A stretch of DNA of 22,464 nt from a virus. Each line of letters opens with the position of its first letter. Position 1 is the stretch's first letter. Both the position numbers and the translations under genes were made by a program. Positions 2 through 19,015 of this stretch are shown one piece after another. The notes beneath the pieces are model-generated. The model worked only from the letters and a program-made list of their open reading frames with translations, had not been told where the DNA came from and ran no database searches. Location: positions 1 to 22,464 of the IMG/VR virus record IMGVR_UViG_3300047317_000022; one strand, written 5' to 3'.

Positions 2-142
2 CCCGCGATTGTCACTGAAGTCGTCGACGAGCTCGATGCCGCAGCAGCCAAGATCAAGGCTGTCTATGACAAACTCGGCATCGACGTGCATGCGTGGGCT
101 GAAATCGTGGCGCTCGCCAAGGCGCTCGCCAAGGCGCTCTAG
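2..142 (+). CDS. C-terminal fragment of unknown phage protein
   Basis: The frame starting at base 2 is open from the window edge to a TAG at 140-142 and encodes the last 46 residues of a protein that starts outside the window. The sequence is rich in Ala, Val, Asp and Lys and looks helical. It ends in the repetitive LAKALAKAL, encoded by a 12-bp tandem repeat. I do not recognise the family. It lies 27 bases upstream of a tRNA gene and in the same orientation as the packaging genes, so it probably belongs to the phage genome rather than to a host flank. The reading frame is well supported but the function is unknown. Confidence 0.6.
   Translation, partial: PAIVTEVVDELDAAAAKIKAVYDKLGIDVHAWAEIVALAKALAKAL
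109..139 (+). repeat. 12-bp tandem repeat, about 2.6 copies
   Basis: The unit GGCGCTCGCCAA occurs at 109-120 and 121-132, and its first seven bases recur at 133-139. Being in frame, it encodes repeated ALAK at the C-terminus of the upstream partial protein. It is probably a slippage-derived coding repeat. Confidence 0.7.
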
Positions 143-169: not shown

Positions 170-246
170 TGCGCGGTAGAGAAGCCCGATATCTCGCATG
201 GCTCATAACCATGAAATCGTCCGTTCAAATCGGACCTGCGCAACCA
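170..246 (+). tRNA. tRNA with CAT anticodon, initiator (fMet)-like
   Basis: A complete 77-nt cloverleaf can be folded by eye. The acceptor stem TGCGCGG (170-176) pairs with CTGCGCA (236-242) with one G-T wobble. It is followed by discriminator A and an encoded CCA at 244-246. The D arm is GAGA/TCTC, the anticodon stem is CATGG/CCATG around loop CTCATAA (anticodon CAT), the variable loop is AAATC, and the T arm is GTCCG/CGGAC around TTCAAAT. Several features match bacterial initiator tRNA: A11:U24 in the D stem, a D loop starting AGCCC, a weak U1:A72 top pair, the 3' end GCAACCA and two of the three conserved anticodon-stem G:C pairs. The third is T29:A41. The usual G19 is A. Elongator tRNA-Met or lysidine tRNA-Ile2 remain possible. 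The gene lies 15 bases before terS. Confidence 0.88.
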
Positions 247-261
247 ACCACGGTAAAGACC

Positions 262-666
262 ATGCCTGTCCTCAAGAACGCCCGGCACGAGAAGTTCGCC
301 CAGGCGTTGGCCAAGGGCAGCACAGCAGACGATGCCTACGAGAACGCCGGCTTCAAGCCTGACAGGGGCCATGCAAGCCGGCTGGCAGCAAATGGCAACG
401 TTCAGGCGCGAGTTGGCGAGATAAAGTCCAGAGCGGCCGAGAAGGCTGAGTGGACCGCAGCTGACCGTCTCGTGATGCTCAAAGTCATCGCCGAGAAGAA
501 CATCAGGGCCGATCCCAGATCGACGATCGCTGCCATTGGTGAGGCGAACAAGATGCAGGGCAGCCACGCCCCAGCCAAGCTTCAGCACACCGGGGCAGAC
601 GGCGGCCCAATCAAGACCGAGAACAGGACATGGCGGGAGGTTCTGCGGCAAGAGGGCAACGAGTGA
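262..666 (+). CDS. terS: Terminase small subunit
   Basis: This 134-aa protein fits a phage terminase small subunit, which recognises phage DNA and loads it onto the large subunit for packaging. The N-terminal part (about residues 5-55) reads like the DNA-binding region of this family: a 'KFAQALAKG' helix, then 'DAYENAGFKP' and 'AARLxANGNVQARV'-type helices. The C-terminal part is the oligomerisation and large-subunit contact region. I chose the ATG at 262. An in-frame ATG at 211 lies inside the tRNA and would read tRNA sequence as protein. The ribosome site before 262 (GGTAAAG) is weak. Its stop overlaps the likely GTG start of terL. The family call rests on similarity recognised by eye plus position immediately before terL. 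Confidence 0.85.
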   Translation: MPVLKNARHEKFAQALAKGSTADDAYENAGFKPDRGHASRLAANGNVQARVGEIKSRAAEKAEWTAADRLVMLKVIAEKNIRADPRSTIAAIGEANKMQGSHAPAKLQHTGADGGPIKTENRTWREVLRQEGNE

Positions 667-2096
667 ATGCTGCCGTCCAGCACGACGCCAATCTCCCGCT
701 GACCAATCCAGCGCTCTATGATTTCTGGGAGCGCGTCTTCCTCGGCAAGGCCGATATCGCCGTCCTTCATGGCGGTCGATCCAGTTCGAAAACGAGAGAT
801 ACGGCCTGCCAGCTTGTTCGCCTGATCGACCATATCACGGTCAAGATGCGCGTCTTGTGCATCCGGCGGTTCCAGAACCGCATTCAGGAGTCCGTCTATA
901 CGGAGCTGAAATGGGCGATCAATCATCTGGGCTTGAAGGATAAGTTCGACGTCCAGAAGACGACGATCATCCACAAGGCATCAGAATCAGAATTCATATT
1001 TTATGGCATAGAGCGCAACCTTGAGGACATCAAGGGAACGTCGGATATCGATATTCTCTGGGTGGAGGAGGCTGAAAAGCTCACCGAGGAGCAATGGACC
1101 GTCATCGCTCCGACGATCCGAAAAGAAGACAGCTTAGCGATCCTGCTATTCAATCCGAAGTTCGTGACCGACTATGTCTGGCGCAACTTCGTGGTGAATA
1201 CGCCACCGCATTGCGTCGTCCATCAGATCAATCACACGGAAAACCCTTTCCTTTCGGAGAAGGCAACCCGCGATATCGTTGCCATGCAGGAGCGCGATCC
1301 TGAGACATTCGAACACATCTATGGTGGCGTTCCCCTCGGCGATAGTGAGCTTTCGATCTTCAAGCGCAGATGGCTCGATGCCTGCATTGATGCTCATACG
1401 GTGCTGCGGATCGACCTGACTGGCCGAAACATCATCGGTTTCGACCCAGCTGACGACGGTGAGGACAAGAGCGCGACAGCTGACAAGCTGGGCGGCGTGT
1501 TTACCGATGTCGAGGATTGGTCATCCGGCAAGGATGAATTGGTCCAGAACGCAAAGCGCGTTTGGACCAAGGCCAGAAACGCCAAGGCGACTGTGTCTTA
1601 CGATACGATCGGCGTCGGCGCGTTTGTTGGTGGCTACATCGACGAGCAGAACCAGAGCAACGGCGCCAGTGTGGAGCATTATGCCTTCCATGCCGGCGGT
1701 GCGGTGATGGATGGCGACAAGCCGAGCGATCCGCAGAACGACAATAGCCCGCTCAACAAGAATGAGTATCTGAACCTGAAGGCGCAAGCCTGGGCGAATA
1801 CGGCCCGTAAGGCGATGCTGACCTTTAACGCGGTTGTCAGAGGTCAATCAATCAAGGCAGCGGATGTCTTGTCCTTCTCTTCGGAGATTGGGCCTGAAAA
1901 GCTGACCGCCTTGTTTACTGAGCTTTGCGTTCCCTGGTGGGTGGAGAGCGAAGGGAAAAAGCGAGTTGTGCCGAAGTCCAAGCTTAAGAAGGACTTAGGC
2001 GTGAAGTCTCACAACTTGGCTGATGCTGTCATTGCCGCTGACAATGTCGATACCGACGGCTTTGATTTGGAAATGTGGAAGAGGTTGGCCGGATAA
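663..2096 (+). CDS. terL: Terminase large subunit (PBSX/Terminase_3 type)
   Basis: This is the ATPase-nuclease that drives DNA into the prohead and cuts it. Visible motifs, numbered from the GTG start, are Walker A GGRSSSKT (37-44), Walker B DILWVEEAEK (130-139), and an LLFNP segment about 30 residues later. A C-terminal nuclease half starts with the acidic FDPADDGEDK (260-269) and ends near SHNLADAVIAAD. The total of 477 aa is normal for the family. I prefer the GTG at 663. It overlaps the terS stop as GTGA and sits about 7 bases after an AGAGGG ribosome site. An ATG at 630 would add 11 low-complexity residues inside terS. The stop TAA overlaps the portal ATG (TAATG), consistent with translational coupling. 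Confidence 0.95.
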   Translation: MNAAVQHDANLPLTNPALYDFWERVFLGKADIAVLHGGRSSSKTRDTACQLVRLIDHITVKMRVLCIRRFQNRIQESVYTELKWAINHLGLKDKFDVQKTTIIHKASESEFIFYGIERNLEDIKGTSDIDILWVEEAEKLTEEQWTVIAPTIRKEDSLAILLFNPKFVTDYVWRNFVVNTPPHCVVHQINHTENPFLSEKATRDIVAMQERDPETFEHIYGGVPLGDSELSIFKRRWLDACIDAHTVLRIDLTGRNIIGFDPADDGEDKSATADKLGGVFTDVEDWSSGKDELVQNAKRVWTKARNAKATVSYDTIGVGAFVGGYIDEQNQSNGASVEHYAFHAGGAVMDGDKPSDPQNDNSPLNKNEYLNLKAQAWANTARKAMLTFNAVVRGQSIKAADVLSFSSEIGPEKLTALFTELCVPWWVESEGKKRVVPKSKLKKDLGVKSHNLADAVIAADNVDTDGFDLEMWKRLAG

Positions 2097-3598
2097 TGTC
2101 GAGACGCCGTAGCAACCGCATTCAGCAGCGCCAGCCGACCCACGCAAACGACAACACACCAAAAACGCAGGACTCCTATCAGAACTTCTCGGCGCGCGTC
2201 GGCGTCGGCACTGACAACGTATCGAGCGGCGCGACGTATGGGTTCAACCCAGTCACGCGCAATCGCATACAGATCGAATGGATGTACCGCGGCTCATGGC
2301 TCGTCGGTAAGGCCGTCGACGTTGTTGCTGAGGATATGACGCGCGCCGGCATTGATATCTCTGGGACTACGAATCCTGACGACATCGAGCGTCTGCACCA
2401 GACCATGAGCAGGCTGCAAATCTGGCAGGCTCTCAACGACACTGTGAAGTGGTCGCGCCTTTATGGTGGCGCCGTCGCCGTGATGCTGATTGACGGCCAG
2501 GACGTTGCGACGCCGCTGCGGCCAGAGACGGTCAGTAAGGACCAGTTCAAAGGCCTGCTGGTGCTAGACCGATGGATGGTTCAGCCATCGCTCGGCACGC
2601 CCGTCAAGGATTTCGGCCCGTACCTCGGCCAGCCAGAGTTCTACACGATCAATCAGAATGCGCCGGCGCTCATGAACAAGCGCGTGCATTACAGCCGCAT
2701 CATCCGCATTGACGGCTACGAGTTGCCATTCCAGCAGCGCCAGACCGAGAATGGCTGGGGCCTCAGCATCGTTGAGCGCCTGTATGATCGCCTCGTGGCG
2801 TTCGACAGCTCTACGCAGGGTGCAGCGCAGCTCGTCTTCAAGGCGCATCTTCGTACCTATAAGGTTGCCAATCTCCGCAAGGTGATCGCGGCCGGTGGTG
2901 TCGCGCTCGATGCACTGACCAAGCAGATGGACATGATACGCAAGTATCAATCCAACGAGGGCCTGACCCTCATGGATGGCGAAGACGAATTCGAGGCGCA
3001 CTCGTATTCGTTCGCTGGTCTGTCTGATCTGCTTCTGCAATTCGGTCAGCAGCTGTCCGGTGCGCTAGACATTCCGCTTGTGCGGTTGTTCGGCCAGTCG
3101 CCGTCTGGGATGAATTCCACCGGCGAGAGCGATCTGCGGAACTATTACGATAGCATCGCAGCGCAGCAGGAGCGGCGCCTCAGGTTGCCATTTACGACGT
3201 TGCTCAACGTGCTCTATCGATCCGAGTTCGGATCTGAGCCGCCGTCAGGCTTCAATTTTCGGTTCAACCCGCTTTGGCAGTTGAGCGAGAAGGAACGGGC
3301 GGAGACAGCACAGGTCATCGCAACGGCGGTTTCTGGCGTCTTTACCGATGGCATCATCACGCGCGTAGCCGCTCTCAAGGAGTTGCGCCAATCGGCCGAC
3401 GTCACTGGCATCTTCTCGAATATTTCCGATGAGGACATCGAGGATGCGGAAGGCGACATGCCCCCAGGCACCGAAGGATTGCTTGACGATCCAGAGGGCG
3501 ACACACCCGAAGGCGACCAGCCCGACAACGATCCAGTCGAGCAGGAGCAGTCCGAAGCCGAGCCGGCAACGTCAATCAAGACTAGCGGTGAGAAATGA
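2096..3598 (+). CDS. Portal protein, DUF1073 family
   Basis: This 500-aa protein is the dodecameric ring at the capsid vertex through which DNA passes. The signature of DUF1073-type portals is present: a WMYRGSWLVGKAVDVVAEDM-like segment near residues 62-82, then the core 'GALDIPLVRLFGQSPSGMN' followed by SDLRNYYD and an EERRLRLPF-like helix. The last 60 residues are strongly acidic and rich in Pro, Asp and Glu. The start at 2096 overlaps the terL stop and follows GAAGAGG. An ATG 21 bases upstream is less likely. Databases often label this family 'anti-CBASS Acb1', because some members carry a fused Acb1 phosphodiesterase. At this length, with only an acidic tail, I see no extra enzymatic domain. 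Confidence 0.88.
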   Translation: MSRRRSNRIQQRQPTHANDNTPKTQDSYQNFSARVGVGTDNVSSGATYGFNPVTRNRIQIEWMYRGSWLVGKAVDVVAEDMTRAGIDISGTTNPDDIERLHQTMSRLQIWQALNDTVKWSRLYGGAVAVMLIDGQDVATPLRPETVSKDQFKGLLVLDRWMVQPSLGTPVKDFGPYLGQPEFYTINQNAPALMNKRVHYSRIIRIDGYELPFQQRQTENGWGLSIVERLYDRLVAFDSSTQGAAQLVFKAHLRTYKVANLRKVIAAGGVALDALTKQMDMIRKYQSNEGLTLMDGEDEFEAHSYSFAGLSDLLLQFGQQLSGALDIPLVRLFGQSPSGMNSTGESDLRNYYDSIAAQQERRLRLPFTTLLNVLYRSEFGSEPPSGFNFRFNPLWQLSEKERAETAQVIATAVSGVFTDGIITRVAALKELRQSADVTGIFSNISDEDIEDAEGDMPPGTEGLLDDPEGDTPEGDQPDNDPVEQEQSEAEPATSIKTSGEK

Positions 3599-6885: not shown

Positions 6886-7926
6886 ATGTTCCACGATCGT
6901 AAACTGTCCGGTGTGGCGGCGCTTGCCGCTCCCGGTCTCATCCGCGTTCGCACGCGTGATGCAATGACCACCTATGACCAGGCTACTCTCGACAGCGCTG
7001 GCTCGTTCCTTATCGGCGAGCTCGAGCGCCTCGATCCGACCATCAACCAGCCGCTGGTTGCCTACACCTGGTCGCGCGACGTCGACCTTCGCGAAGACGT
7101 CACCATTGCTGACGAAGTCGCGTCGTTCACCAACTCGAGCTTTGCCGCTGCCGGCGGCATCAATCCGAACGGCAAGGCATGGGTAGGCAAGTCTGCCAAC
7201 GCCATCTCGTCCGTCGCCCTCGACATCGGTAAGACGCCGCAGCCGTTGAACCTGTGGGGCATGGAGCTCTCTTGGACCATTCCTGAACTGGAATCGGCCA
7301 TCAAGCTCGGCCGCCCAATCGATACCCAGAAGCTTGACGGTCTGAACCTCAAGCATCAGATGGACATCGACGAGCAGGTCTATATCGGCGACTCCGTGCT
7401 GCCGAACTGCTATGGTTTGGTGAACCTTTCGGCCGTCACCCCGACGAACGTTCCAAGCACCGGTACCGGCAGCTCTCCGCTGTGGATCAACAAGACCGCC
7501 GACCAGATCCTCTCTGACGTCAACACGCTGTTGTCTTCTGTCTGGGCCGCTTCCGGTTACGCTCAGGCTCCGACCGATCTCCGCCTTCCTCCTGCACAGT
7601 TTGGCTATCTGGTTTCCCAGAAGGTCAGCTCGGCCGGCAACATCTCCATCCTCGAGTTCCTTCGTCAGAACTCGCTGTCGCTTCAGATCAACGGCAAGCC
7701 GCTGAACATTCAGCCGCTGAAGTGGCTTCCTGGCCGCGGCGCTGGTTCGACAGACCGCATGGTGGCTTACACCAAGGATCCGAAGTACGTCCGGTTCCCG
7801 ATGGTCCCGCTGCAGCGCACTCCGCTGGAATACCGCTCGCTCTACCAGATCACGACCTACTTCGGTCGTCTCGGTCAGATCGAAGCTCGCTATCCGGAAA
7901 CGGTTGGCTACGCAGACGGCCTCTAA
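6886..7926 (+). CDS. Major capsid protein, DUF2184 family
   Basis: This 346-aa protein matches the DUF2184 major capsid family, which has an HK97-like fold and builds the head shell. Supporting segments are LERLDPTINQPLVAYTWSRD near residues 45-65, WGMELSWTIPELESA, and a 'DEQVYIGDS...CYGLVN' stretch. The C-terminal part has 'MVAYTKDPKYVRFPMVPLQR' and YFGRLGQIEARYPETVGY. I chose the ATG at 6886 because GGAGA lies about 8-9 bases upstream and the protein then starts at the conserved region. A longer reading from 6739 runs through the preceding gene. The hairpins on both sides of this gene suggest its transcript level may be set separately, as expected for the most abundant virion protein. Confidence 0.9.
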   Translation: MFHDRKLSGVAALAAPGLIRVRTRDAMTTYDQATLDSAGSFLIGELERLDPTINQPLVAYTWSRDVDLREDVTIADEVASFTNSSFAAAGGINPNGKAWVGKSANAISSVALDIGKTPQPLNLWGMELSWTIPELESAIKLGRPIDTQKLDGLNLKHQMDIDEQVYIGDSVLPNCYGLVNLSAVTPTNVPSTGTGSSPLWINKTADQILSDVNTLLSSVWAASGYAQAPTDLRLPPAQFGYLVSQKVSSAGNISILEFLRQNSLSLQINGKPLNIQPLKWLPGRGAGSTDRMVAYTKDPKYVRFPMVPLQRTPLEYRSLYQITTYFGRLGQIEARYPETVGYADGL

Positions 7927-7937
7927 GCCACTGCGTT

Positions 7938-7964
7938 CGGTGGGTGACGACAAGTTGCCCACCG
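7938..7964 (+). other. Stem-loop after major capsid gene
   Basis: CGGTGGG (7938-7944) and CCCACCG (7958-7964) form a perfect 7-bp stem with a 13-base loop, 12 bases after the capsid stop. No run of T follows. It may be a partial terminator or a 3' stabiliser of the capsid message. Confidence 0.5.
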
Positions 7965-7986
7965 CCCACTCTTAGAGGAGATGAAG

Positions 7987-17837: not shown

Positions 17838-19015
17838 TGGCAACAACGCCGGTTTGCACAATCGATGCCACAGGTATCCATGTGCCGTCTTTCAATGATG
17901 TTCTGACCTATCTGCAGGGCCAGTATCGTGGCATTTATGGCGCCGACGTGTATCTGGGCAACGATAGCCAGGACGGCCAGCTTCTTGGAATTTACGCGCT
18001 CGCCATTTCCGATTCCAATGCGGCTGTCGCCGCAGCATATAACGCTTTCTCGCCAGCAACAGCGCAGGGGGCCGGACTATCTAGCGTCGTCAAAATCAAC
18101 GGGATAGCCCGCAACATCGCCAGCTTTTCTTCGGTCGACCTGACAATTGTCGGGCAAGCAGGCACCACGATCTCGAACGGCATCGCCGCTGACGCCAATG
18201 GCAATCAGTGGCTACTTCCAGCAAGCGTCACGATCCCTCCGGCTGGCACGATCATTGCTACGGCTACGGCTGCTTCGATCGGTGCGCAGGCGGCGGCCCC
18301 GAACACTATCACCAATATCGCGACACCGACTCGTGGTTGGCAGACGGTTAACAATGCGTCCAGTGCGGCGGCCGGCGCTCCGGTAGAGTCGGACCCGGCT
18401 CTACGCAAGCGTCAGACGACATCAACTGCGTTGCCTTCCAACACGATCCTTGAGGGGATTATGGGAGCAATCGCTGAAATCACCGGCGTGACGCGCTATC
18501 AGCCTTATGAGAACGACACGATCACCACGGATAGCCACGGCATACCGGCAAACGCCCTCGCCATCGTTGTCGAAGGCGGTGATGCTCAGACGATTGCGAA
18601 TACGATTGCCGCAAGAAAGTCTATCGGTGGCCCAACGTTTGGCACTACGAGCGAGACAGTCACCGACGTCTACGGGATTTCTCGGACGATAAACTTTTTC
18701 AGGCCGACAGCCGTAACTATCACGGTCGCAATCGCCCTGAAAGCACTTACCGGCTACACGACCGCTGTTGATACGTCCATCAAGCAGGCGGTCGTCGATT
18801 ATATCAACGCTACGGGCATAGGCGGGCAGCCTAGCGGCACGGTCGAGTGGGATGGTGCAATTACCGCAGCCAAGTCGGTCTCCGGTGCTGCGACGTTCAG
18901 GATGTCGTCTTTGGCGTTGTCTCGCACGAGCGGAGCAGGAACGCCAGACGTTCCTCTGACATTCAATGAGGCTGCAACCGCAGCCCTCGTAAACGTGACA
19001 ATCACGGTGACCTGA
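17837..19015 (+). CDS. Baseplate wedge protein, gpJ-like
   Basis: This 392-aa protein matches the baseplate J-like family, the wedge that surrounds the hub and changes shape when the sheath contracts. It starts with FNDVLTYLQGQYRGIYGADV and DSQDGQLLGIYALAI, which are characteristic. A TGAGLSSVVKINGIAR-like helix follows, then a central beta domain with 'SDPALRKRQTTSTALPSNT', and a C-terminal TAVDTSIKQAVVDYINATGIGG domain. It overlaps the next gene by one base. Size and position are as expected. Confidence 0.9.
   Translation: MATTPVCTIDATGIHVPSFNDVLTYLQGQYRGIYGADVYLGNDSQDGQLLGIYALAISDSNAAVAAAYNAFSPATAQGAGLSSVVKINGIARNIASFSSVDLTIVGQAGTTISNGIAADANGNQWLLPASVTIPPAGTIIATATAASIGAQAAAPNTITNIATPTRGWQTVNNASSAAAGAPVESDPALRKRQTTSTALPSNTILEGIMGAIAEITGVTRYQPYENDTITTDSHGIPANALAIVVEGGDAQTIANTIAARKSIGGPTFGTTSETVTDVYGISRTINFFRPTAVTITVAIALKALTGYTTAVDTSIKQAVVDYINATGIGGQPSGTVEWDGAITAAKSVSGAATFRMSSLALSRTSGAGTPDVPLTFNEAATAALVNVTITVT

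Follow-up and report, generated by a model that had tools for sequence, protein, structure and literature searches.

The window analysed here, a virus record of 22,464 bases taken as a whole, carries a single tRNA gene, which ARAGORN placed at exactly 170–246 on the plus strand as tRNA-Met(CAT). This initiator-like gene is 77 nt long, has its anticodon CAT at 204–206 and encodes the CCA end. The Rfam tRNA model (RF00005) gave 55.5 bits in a local search, the gathering score being 29; a default scan of the whole window at that threshold reported no hit, an outcome that its fast filters probably explain. The covariance model of the tRNA family described below scored the gene at 90.1 bits, the window tRNA being one of the 21 sequences from which that model was built. 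The predicted fold is a full cloverleaf with all four stems (-24.6 kcal/mol, z = -2.8).

Upstream, the 3′ end of an alanine-rich ORF occupies positions 2–142 (plus strand), its stop lying 27 nt before the tRNA. The complete version of this ORF, for which no PHROG match was obtained, is found at 3474–3881 of contig L019, which shares both the tRNA and TerS with the window. On the other side, the tRNA ends 15 nt before the ATG (262) of terS, in agreement with the preliminary description of this DNA, which had placed it before that gene. terS (262–666, plus strand) encodes the small terminase subunit, as judged from a match to phrog_51 (E = 9.8e-12) and from alignment, and terL (630–2096, plus strand; phrog_3717, E = 1.2e-63), encoding the large subunit, is the first packaging or head gene downstream. 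The order after the tRNA is terS, terL, portal, head morphogenesis, protease, capsid, sheath, tape measure and baseplate, and these genes are predicted to form the late operon of a myovirus. The closest named phage is Sinorhizobium phage phiLM21 (a prophage, KJ743987), whose TerL is 82% identical; the relatives point to a rhizobium-type soil bacterium as the probable host. A promoter scan recognized no promoter near the window tRNA, and no terminator was found between the tRNA and terS.

Initiator marks and resemblance to host tRNAs

The 5′ strand of the acceptor stem (TGCGCGG, 170–176, plus strand) places U1 opposite A72 (base 242) and provides the pairs G2:C71, C3:G70 and G4:C69. The D loop (AGCCCGATA, 183–191, plus strand) is of initiator-type length, with 17a, and carries A19 (base 189) where host initiators have G. 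The anticodon stem-loop (CATGG-CTCATAA-CCATG, 197–213, plus strand) contains U29:A41, G30:C40 and G31:C39, and the gene ends with A72-A73-C-C-A (242–246, plus strand), which is invariant in the 21-sequence family alignment. The marks listed in the preliminary description are indeed present: the CAT anticodon, A11:U24, an AGCCC-type D loop with 17a, U1:A72, the encoded CCA within the 3′ end GCAACCA, and A in place of G19. This last replacement should break the usual G19:C56 contact between the D loop and the T loop.

The determinants that govern formylation and P-site entry of initiator tRNAs have been described in detail (PMC9976931, PMC7949028, PMC4611024). All the secondary formylation elements given in the first two of these sources (A73, G2:C71, C3:G70, G4:C69 and A11:U24) are present in the window tRNA, as is the CAU anticodon within a CUCAUAA loop. 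Initiators also lack a Watson–Crick pair at 1:72 (C1xA72 in E. coli), where the window tRNA has U1:A72, a weak standard pair in which A72 is kept, and they possess three G:C pairs at 29:41, 30:40 and 31:39, from which the window tRNA departs at 29:41 (U:A) only. Owing to the standard pair U1:A72, we name the tRNA initiator-like rather than a proven initiator.

For comparison, six genomes with related terminases supplied host tRNAs, and initiators were collected across 121 genomes of the order (Hyphomicrobiales). In these 121 genomes, the matched host initiators are near-uniform, with C1xA72, the anticodon stem TCAGG/CCTGA in all matches but one and A29:U41, G30:C40 and G31:C39 in nearly every match, although the search pattern allowed only C, G or T at position 1 and prescribed GCAACCA and further bases, so that deviant host initiators may escape it. 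The three pairs T29:A41, G30:C40 and G31:C39 are as the preliminary description had them, but the loss of the third G:C pair, to which it drew attention, is no departure from the host norm: since host initiators have A29:U41, two out of three G:C pairs is mostly the state of the clade, and only the direction of 29:41 differs. The unusual features of the window tRNA are U1:A72 and A19.

The host Hyphomicrobiales initiator tRNA-fMet (CGCGGGGTGGAGCAGCCCGGTAGCTCGTCAGGCTCATAACCTGAAGG...) shares with the window tRNA its length of 77 nt, CAT, a D loop with 17a, A11:U24, A72-A73-CCA, G2:C71, C3:G70, G30:C40 and G31:C39, and is likewise without G29:C41. In contrast to it, the window tRNA has U1:A72 instead of C1xA72, the anticodon stem CATGG/CCATG instead of TCAGG/CCTGA (three of the five pairs differ, the loop being identical), the D stem GAGA/TCTC, and A19. 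Identity amounts to 69–73% with host initiators as compared with 54–56% for elongator Met and 45–50% for Ile2 tRNAs, and simple profile scores are 75, 40 and 25, respectively; identity, simple profile and a tree were used in place of host covariance models. In the tree (23 sequences), which with 79 columns is a rough guide, the window tRNA pairs with a prophage tRNA of Rhizobium sp. Root1203 (support 0.83) on the host-initiator side, apart from elongator Met and Ile2. Membership of the host elongator Met or Ile2 class would call for a paired 1:72 of type G1:C72 or G1:U72 and the elongator body of the host; the window tRNA has A72 and is 45–56% identical to these tRNAs. The main reading of the preliminary description, a phage-borne tRNA of initiator type, survived alignment with host fMet, Met and Ile2 tRNAs, of which the initiators are closest, and on these comparisons the window tRNA belongs to the initiator lineage.

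A tRNA family in related phages

Searches with TerS and TerL returned 97 loci in viral sequences and 59 in genomes, and in many of these ARAGORN called CAT tRNAs upstream of the terminase. The covariance model detected the tRNA in 48 of the 97 sources, which are not independent and comprise many near-identical prophages, always upstream of the terminase and on the same strand. This count leaves aside the matches in L023, which are other tRNAs, and two matches with E > 0.001; some of the 48 are clearly decayed (41–60 bits). Strong matches were obtained in nine of 60 further loci. Most relatives have the tRNA 0.4–3 kb upstream of terS, with genes between. RHph_TM3_14A, Rollin and Vibrio 1.210.O, with related TerL, have no annotated tRNA beside TerL.

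The family alignment contains 21 distinct variants, 20 from terminase loci (including the window) plus L174. Pairing is retained in 91.2% of the cloverleaf cells, with compensatory (both-side) changes at 16 of the 21 stem pairs, and none of 500 shuffles reached any of five family pairing measures; selection has acted on the RNA. C3:G70, G30:C40, A72, A73 and CCA are invariant. Position 1:72 is unpaired in 20 of the variants, with C, G or A facing the constant A72, the window being the sole one with U1:A72; the largest subgroup has U2 opposite C71 as well. An unpaired 1:72 combined with a fixed A72 is the trace that selection for an initiator-type acceptor end would be expected to leave. Compared with the host initiator consensus, the family differs at 74% of positions in the outer anticodon-stem pairs and 55% at 29:41, as against 0% at 30:40, 2% in the anticodon loop, 9% in the D loop and 0% in the ACCA end. 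The host anticodon stem-loop is kept by none of the 21 variants.

The phiLM21-like Sinorhizobium prophages belong to the same phage group and carry a related initiator-like fold at the same site, between replication and terminase genes. The phiLM21 tRNA differs in having G1 U2 against C71 A72, a double mismatch, and lies ~0.86 kb before terS, whereas the window tRNA has U1:A72 and G2:C71 and only 15 nt separate it from terS. A 2025 survey of 25 phiLM21-like prophages lists ten tRNA-Met, four tRNA-fMet and one tRNA-Val(CAC), as well as one prophage with two (PMC12429752); in the accessible part of this source, we found no analysis of the role or structure of these tRNAs.

Several peculiarities of individual members deserve mention. 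Two unlike initiator-like tRNAs per prophage precede the terminase in L020, L066, L060, L090 and L098, often with one degraded. G1 U2 opposite C71 A72, a double mismatch, occurs in L008, L014, L100, L463, L464 and L529, and recurs with unrelated terminases; in the predicted fold of the L014 copy, G1 pairs with C71 and U2 is bulged. The tRNA at L041:3185-3261 is identical to the L008 type save for a CAC anticodon in place of CAT; this initiator body would read GUG, and charging with valine is possible. Finally, the tRNA-Met of phiLM21 (L099:3063-3139; KJ743987.1 21148-21224) is on the minus strand in GenBank, and on the plus strand according to ARAGORN and the covariance model.

Recurrence in phages with other terminases

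In a survey that started from the tRNA, an initiator pattern was run over 101 Rhizobiaceae genomes and gave eight places unlike the host type. Five of the eight lie 0.8–3.4 kb upstream of a phrog_9 TerL, on the same strand, the TerL of the window being of another, unrelated family (phrog_3717 and phrog_2). At L526 (the same locus as L132), the tRNA is 1.6 kb upstream of a window-type terS; as for the remaining places, one runs off its contig and L524 is without a terminase nearby. The tRNA is upstream of a terminase in six of the seven assessable cases, as against ~7% expected at random (P about 8e-7), the expectation being our own rough figure for random placement on a 50-kb phage.

The prophage tRNA of Rhizobium sp. 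Root1203 (L174, within L314), nearest to the window tRNA in the tree, has the same GAGA/TCTC D stem and CTCATAA loop, the same AUGG/CCAU in its anticodon stem and a similar location, ~0.4 kb before terS. It differs in being 75 nt long, in having C1xA72 and in preceding a phrog_5601 TerS and a phrog_9 TerL. U1:A72 also recurs in other phages. No nearby terminase was shown for L313, which has U1:A72, or for L315. The latter (7907–7983, minus strand), again from Rhizobium sp. Root1203, is a C1xA72 initiator-like tRNA with C11:G24 beside genes of phage families of unknown function (phrog_8246 and phrog_6856).

Among 49 IMG/VR contigs chosen by their tRNA alone, 16 have a recognizable phrog_2 TerL, and in six of these 16 the tRNA is 0.5–3.5 kb upstream on the same strand, two of the six being in tRNA clusters. 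Three TerL lineages, each chosen by one tRNA-bearing member and hence informative on conservation and recurrence rather than on frequency, were then followed. In the first, an unrelated aquatic one, CAT accounts for 37 of the 51 tRNAs called upstream of TerL; the CAT tRNAs lie 0.5–1.9 kb from TerL, and in 21 of 22 distinct ones A72 is kept while position 1 (C, G or A) is unpaired. The tRNAs of this lineage (L324-L373) join an elongator-type body (C11:G24, 31:39 A:U) to an initiator-type acceptor end, as though this end had arisen on a different body. The second lineage contains eight CAT tRNAs, with U1:A72 commonest, among 18 others. In the third (L319), an independent TerL lineage, the tRNA is present in only one of 29 assessed relatives, so that presence is patchy in some groups.

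Other tailed phages, too, encode CAT tRNAs with about 75–78% identity to the window tRNA, for example the tRNA-Met pairs of large Streptomyces phages; the window has one isolated tRNA at the packaging operon. A recurrent tRNA position before terminase genes was not found described in the openly licensed literature.

Proposed function and alternative explanations

On balance, we lean towards the view that this temperate rhizobial myovirus carries, at the start of its packaging operon, a gene for a functional tRNA of initiator lineage that would supplement, and perhaps replace when it is cleaved by toxins, the initiator of the host. Given the 15 nt to terS and the lack of a terminator or a recognized promoter between the two, the tRNA would be transcribed together with terS and the late genes and then cut from the packaging transcript by host tRNA-processing enzymes. 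Charging by host MetRS could proceed via the CAU anticodon and formylation via A72/A73, G2:C71, C3:G70, G4:C69 and A11:U24, while the P site would read the two retained pairs G30:C40 and G31:C39. The phage tRNA might in this way add to the supply of initiator for a burst of late translation. The data establish the gene, its fold, its kinship with initiators, the recurrence of its conserved position and selection on the RNA, whereas expression, charging, formylation and the benefit to the phage are what we infer. U1:A72 would be expected to keep the tRNA out of elongation somewhat less strictly than C1xA72 does in the host, and a dual role in initiation and elongation is thus conceivable.

Against a working initiator stand A19, U1:A72, the relatives without the tRNA or with decayed copies, the lack of a recognized promoter nearby and the presence in host genomes of one to several initiator genes of their own. 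Since so many relatives are without the tRNA or have decayed copies, it is not essential. Nor does its position alone prove a role in late translation, since other tRNAs and HNH genes lie before terS in some phages.

The anticodon stem, being unlike that of the host, may also let the phage tRNA survive VapC-type nucleases that cut the host initiator there. Taken further, defence evasion could be the main purpose, the tRNA acting either as a replacement initiator whose altered stem resists host VapC-type nucleases or as a decoy occupying them; we regard this as an unlikely, if serious, alternative. Initiator tRNA is cut by VapC1 from Bosea, an alphaproteobacterium, and additional copies of initiator genes gave partial rescue when tested in E. 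coli (PMC8522696). The near-invariant host stem-loop has been rewritten throughout the alignment, its stem being the most diverged part of the family with pairing kept, and several variants swap 31:39 to C:G, adjoining the stem/loop junction cut by VapC. A stem rewritten with pairing kept where VapC-type nucleases read may hint at evasion. However, the loop is unchanged, and in the window so is 31:39, and resistance is therefore not assured; the outer stem pairs may merely be weakly constrained; and L529, a member detected through its T arm, carries the host stem-loop. Phage tRNAs with changes that evade anticodon nucleases have been proposed, yet Shigella phages, whose hosts have a VapC targeting the anticodon of tRNA-fMet, generally avoid tRNA-fMet (PMC10264068).

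The remaining explanations seem to us less probable still. A decaying or neutral passenger, i.e. a host initiator gene that was captured and now drifts where an intergenic position tolerates it, would account for A19 and U1:A72 in the window, for the relatives without the tRNA or with copies of 41–60 bits and for the prophages with two copies, one degraded. It sits badly with full pairing, compensatory changes and invariant A72, A73 and CCA across the family, and with recurrence at this site in phages whose terminases are unrelated. The decaying copy envisaged in the preliminary description loses ground in the same way, all stems of the window tRNA being paired and decay being seen in other members, and we consider a passenger improbable. 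Since only 15 nt without a terminator separate the tRNA from terS, processing would necessarily shape the terS leader, and the fold could be a cis-acting RNase P/RNase E site, cleavage at which would define the 5′ terminus of the terS mRNA or free its RBS. For such a role any tRNA would serve, yet the CAT anticodon, A72 and unpaired 1:72 are kept, and in most relatives other genes intervene between the tRNA and terS; a cis element is accordingly very improbable. A role in elongation, either at internal AUG codons or, as Ile2, at AUA, would agree with the ARAGORN label, which says only Met, and with the paired end U1:A72, which would favour EF-Tu. These readings were rejected on the identities and profile scores given above; moreover, none of the host elongators examined shows the initiator features A72-A73, A11:U24 or the 17a D loop, and position 1 varies in the family while A72 is fixed, leaving an elongator role a very slim chance. 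The old attachment site also raised in the preliminary description, whether as a remnant or through integration into a host initiator gene, gains something from the apparent use of host initiator genes as integration sites, half-gene remnants adjoining foreign DNA in one Pararhizobium genome. The window tRNA is, however, located directly before terS, on the late strand and mid-genome, rather than at a prophage end beside an integrase; it is internal in relatives on contigs of ~50 kb; and it is 27–31% different from host initiators with its stems compensated. Furthermore, the integration sites of phiLM21-like prophages are tRNA genes for Lys, Ser, Leu or Pro (PMC12429752). The attachment-site reading was rejected and appears to us scarcely credible.

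It has long been asked why phages carry tRNAs, and the usual answer, codon usage, cannot account for an initiator tRNA. Phage tRNA-Met and tRNA-fMet were already known in this group; their recurrence across unrelated phages is the most interesting part. Repeated placement before unrelated packaging operons, with the acceptor signature fixed and the anticodon stem rewritten, makes a small testable system, and would imply either that initiation is limiting late in infection or that anti-phage defence is directed at the initiator tRNA of the host. The same arrangement in unrelated viruses suggests that control of translation start matters late in infection. It is tempting to speculate, although we think the whole of this proposal rather doubtful, that unrelated temperate phages have repeatedly acquired, and kept under selection, a dedicated initiator tRNA in the late operon, its acceptor end relaxed (U1:A72, or G1xA72 with U2xC71) and its anticodon stem rewritten, which would take over late initiation when the host initiator is limiting or cut by a toxin. 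The phages also offer natural variants of initiator identity for tests, namely U1:A72, G1xA72 with U2xC71, C31:G39 and elongator-type bodies with initiator acceptor ends.

Two observations concern host-type initiator genes. In the Pararhizobium genome mentioned above, 3′ halves of the host initiator are fused to unrelated 5′ sequence (L161, L167, L182 and L185), the pattern that integration of elements into initiator tRNA genes would leave behind. In L323, an IMG/VR contig of 18,208 bases, identical 3′ ends of a host-type initiator occur at 825–868 and 18064–18107 in the same orientation, separated by ~17.2 kb; they may mark both termini of an element that has inserted into an initiator tRNA gene.
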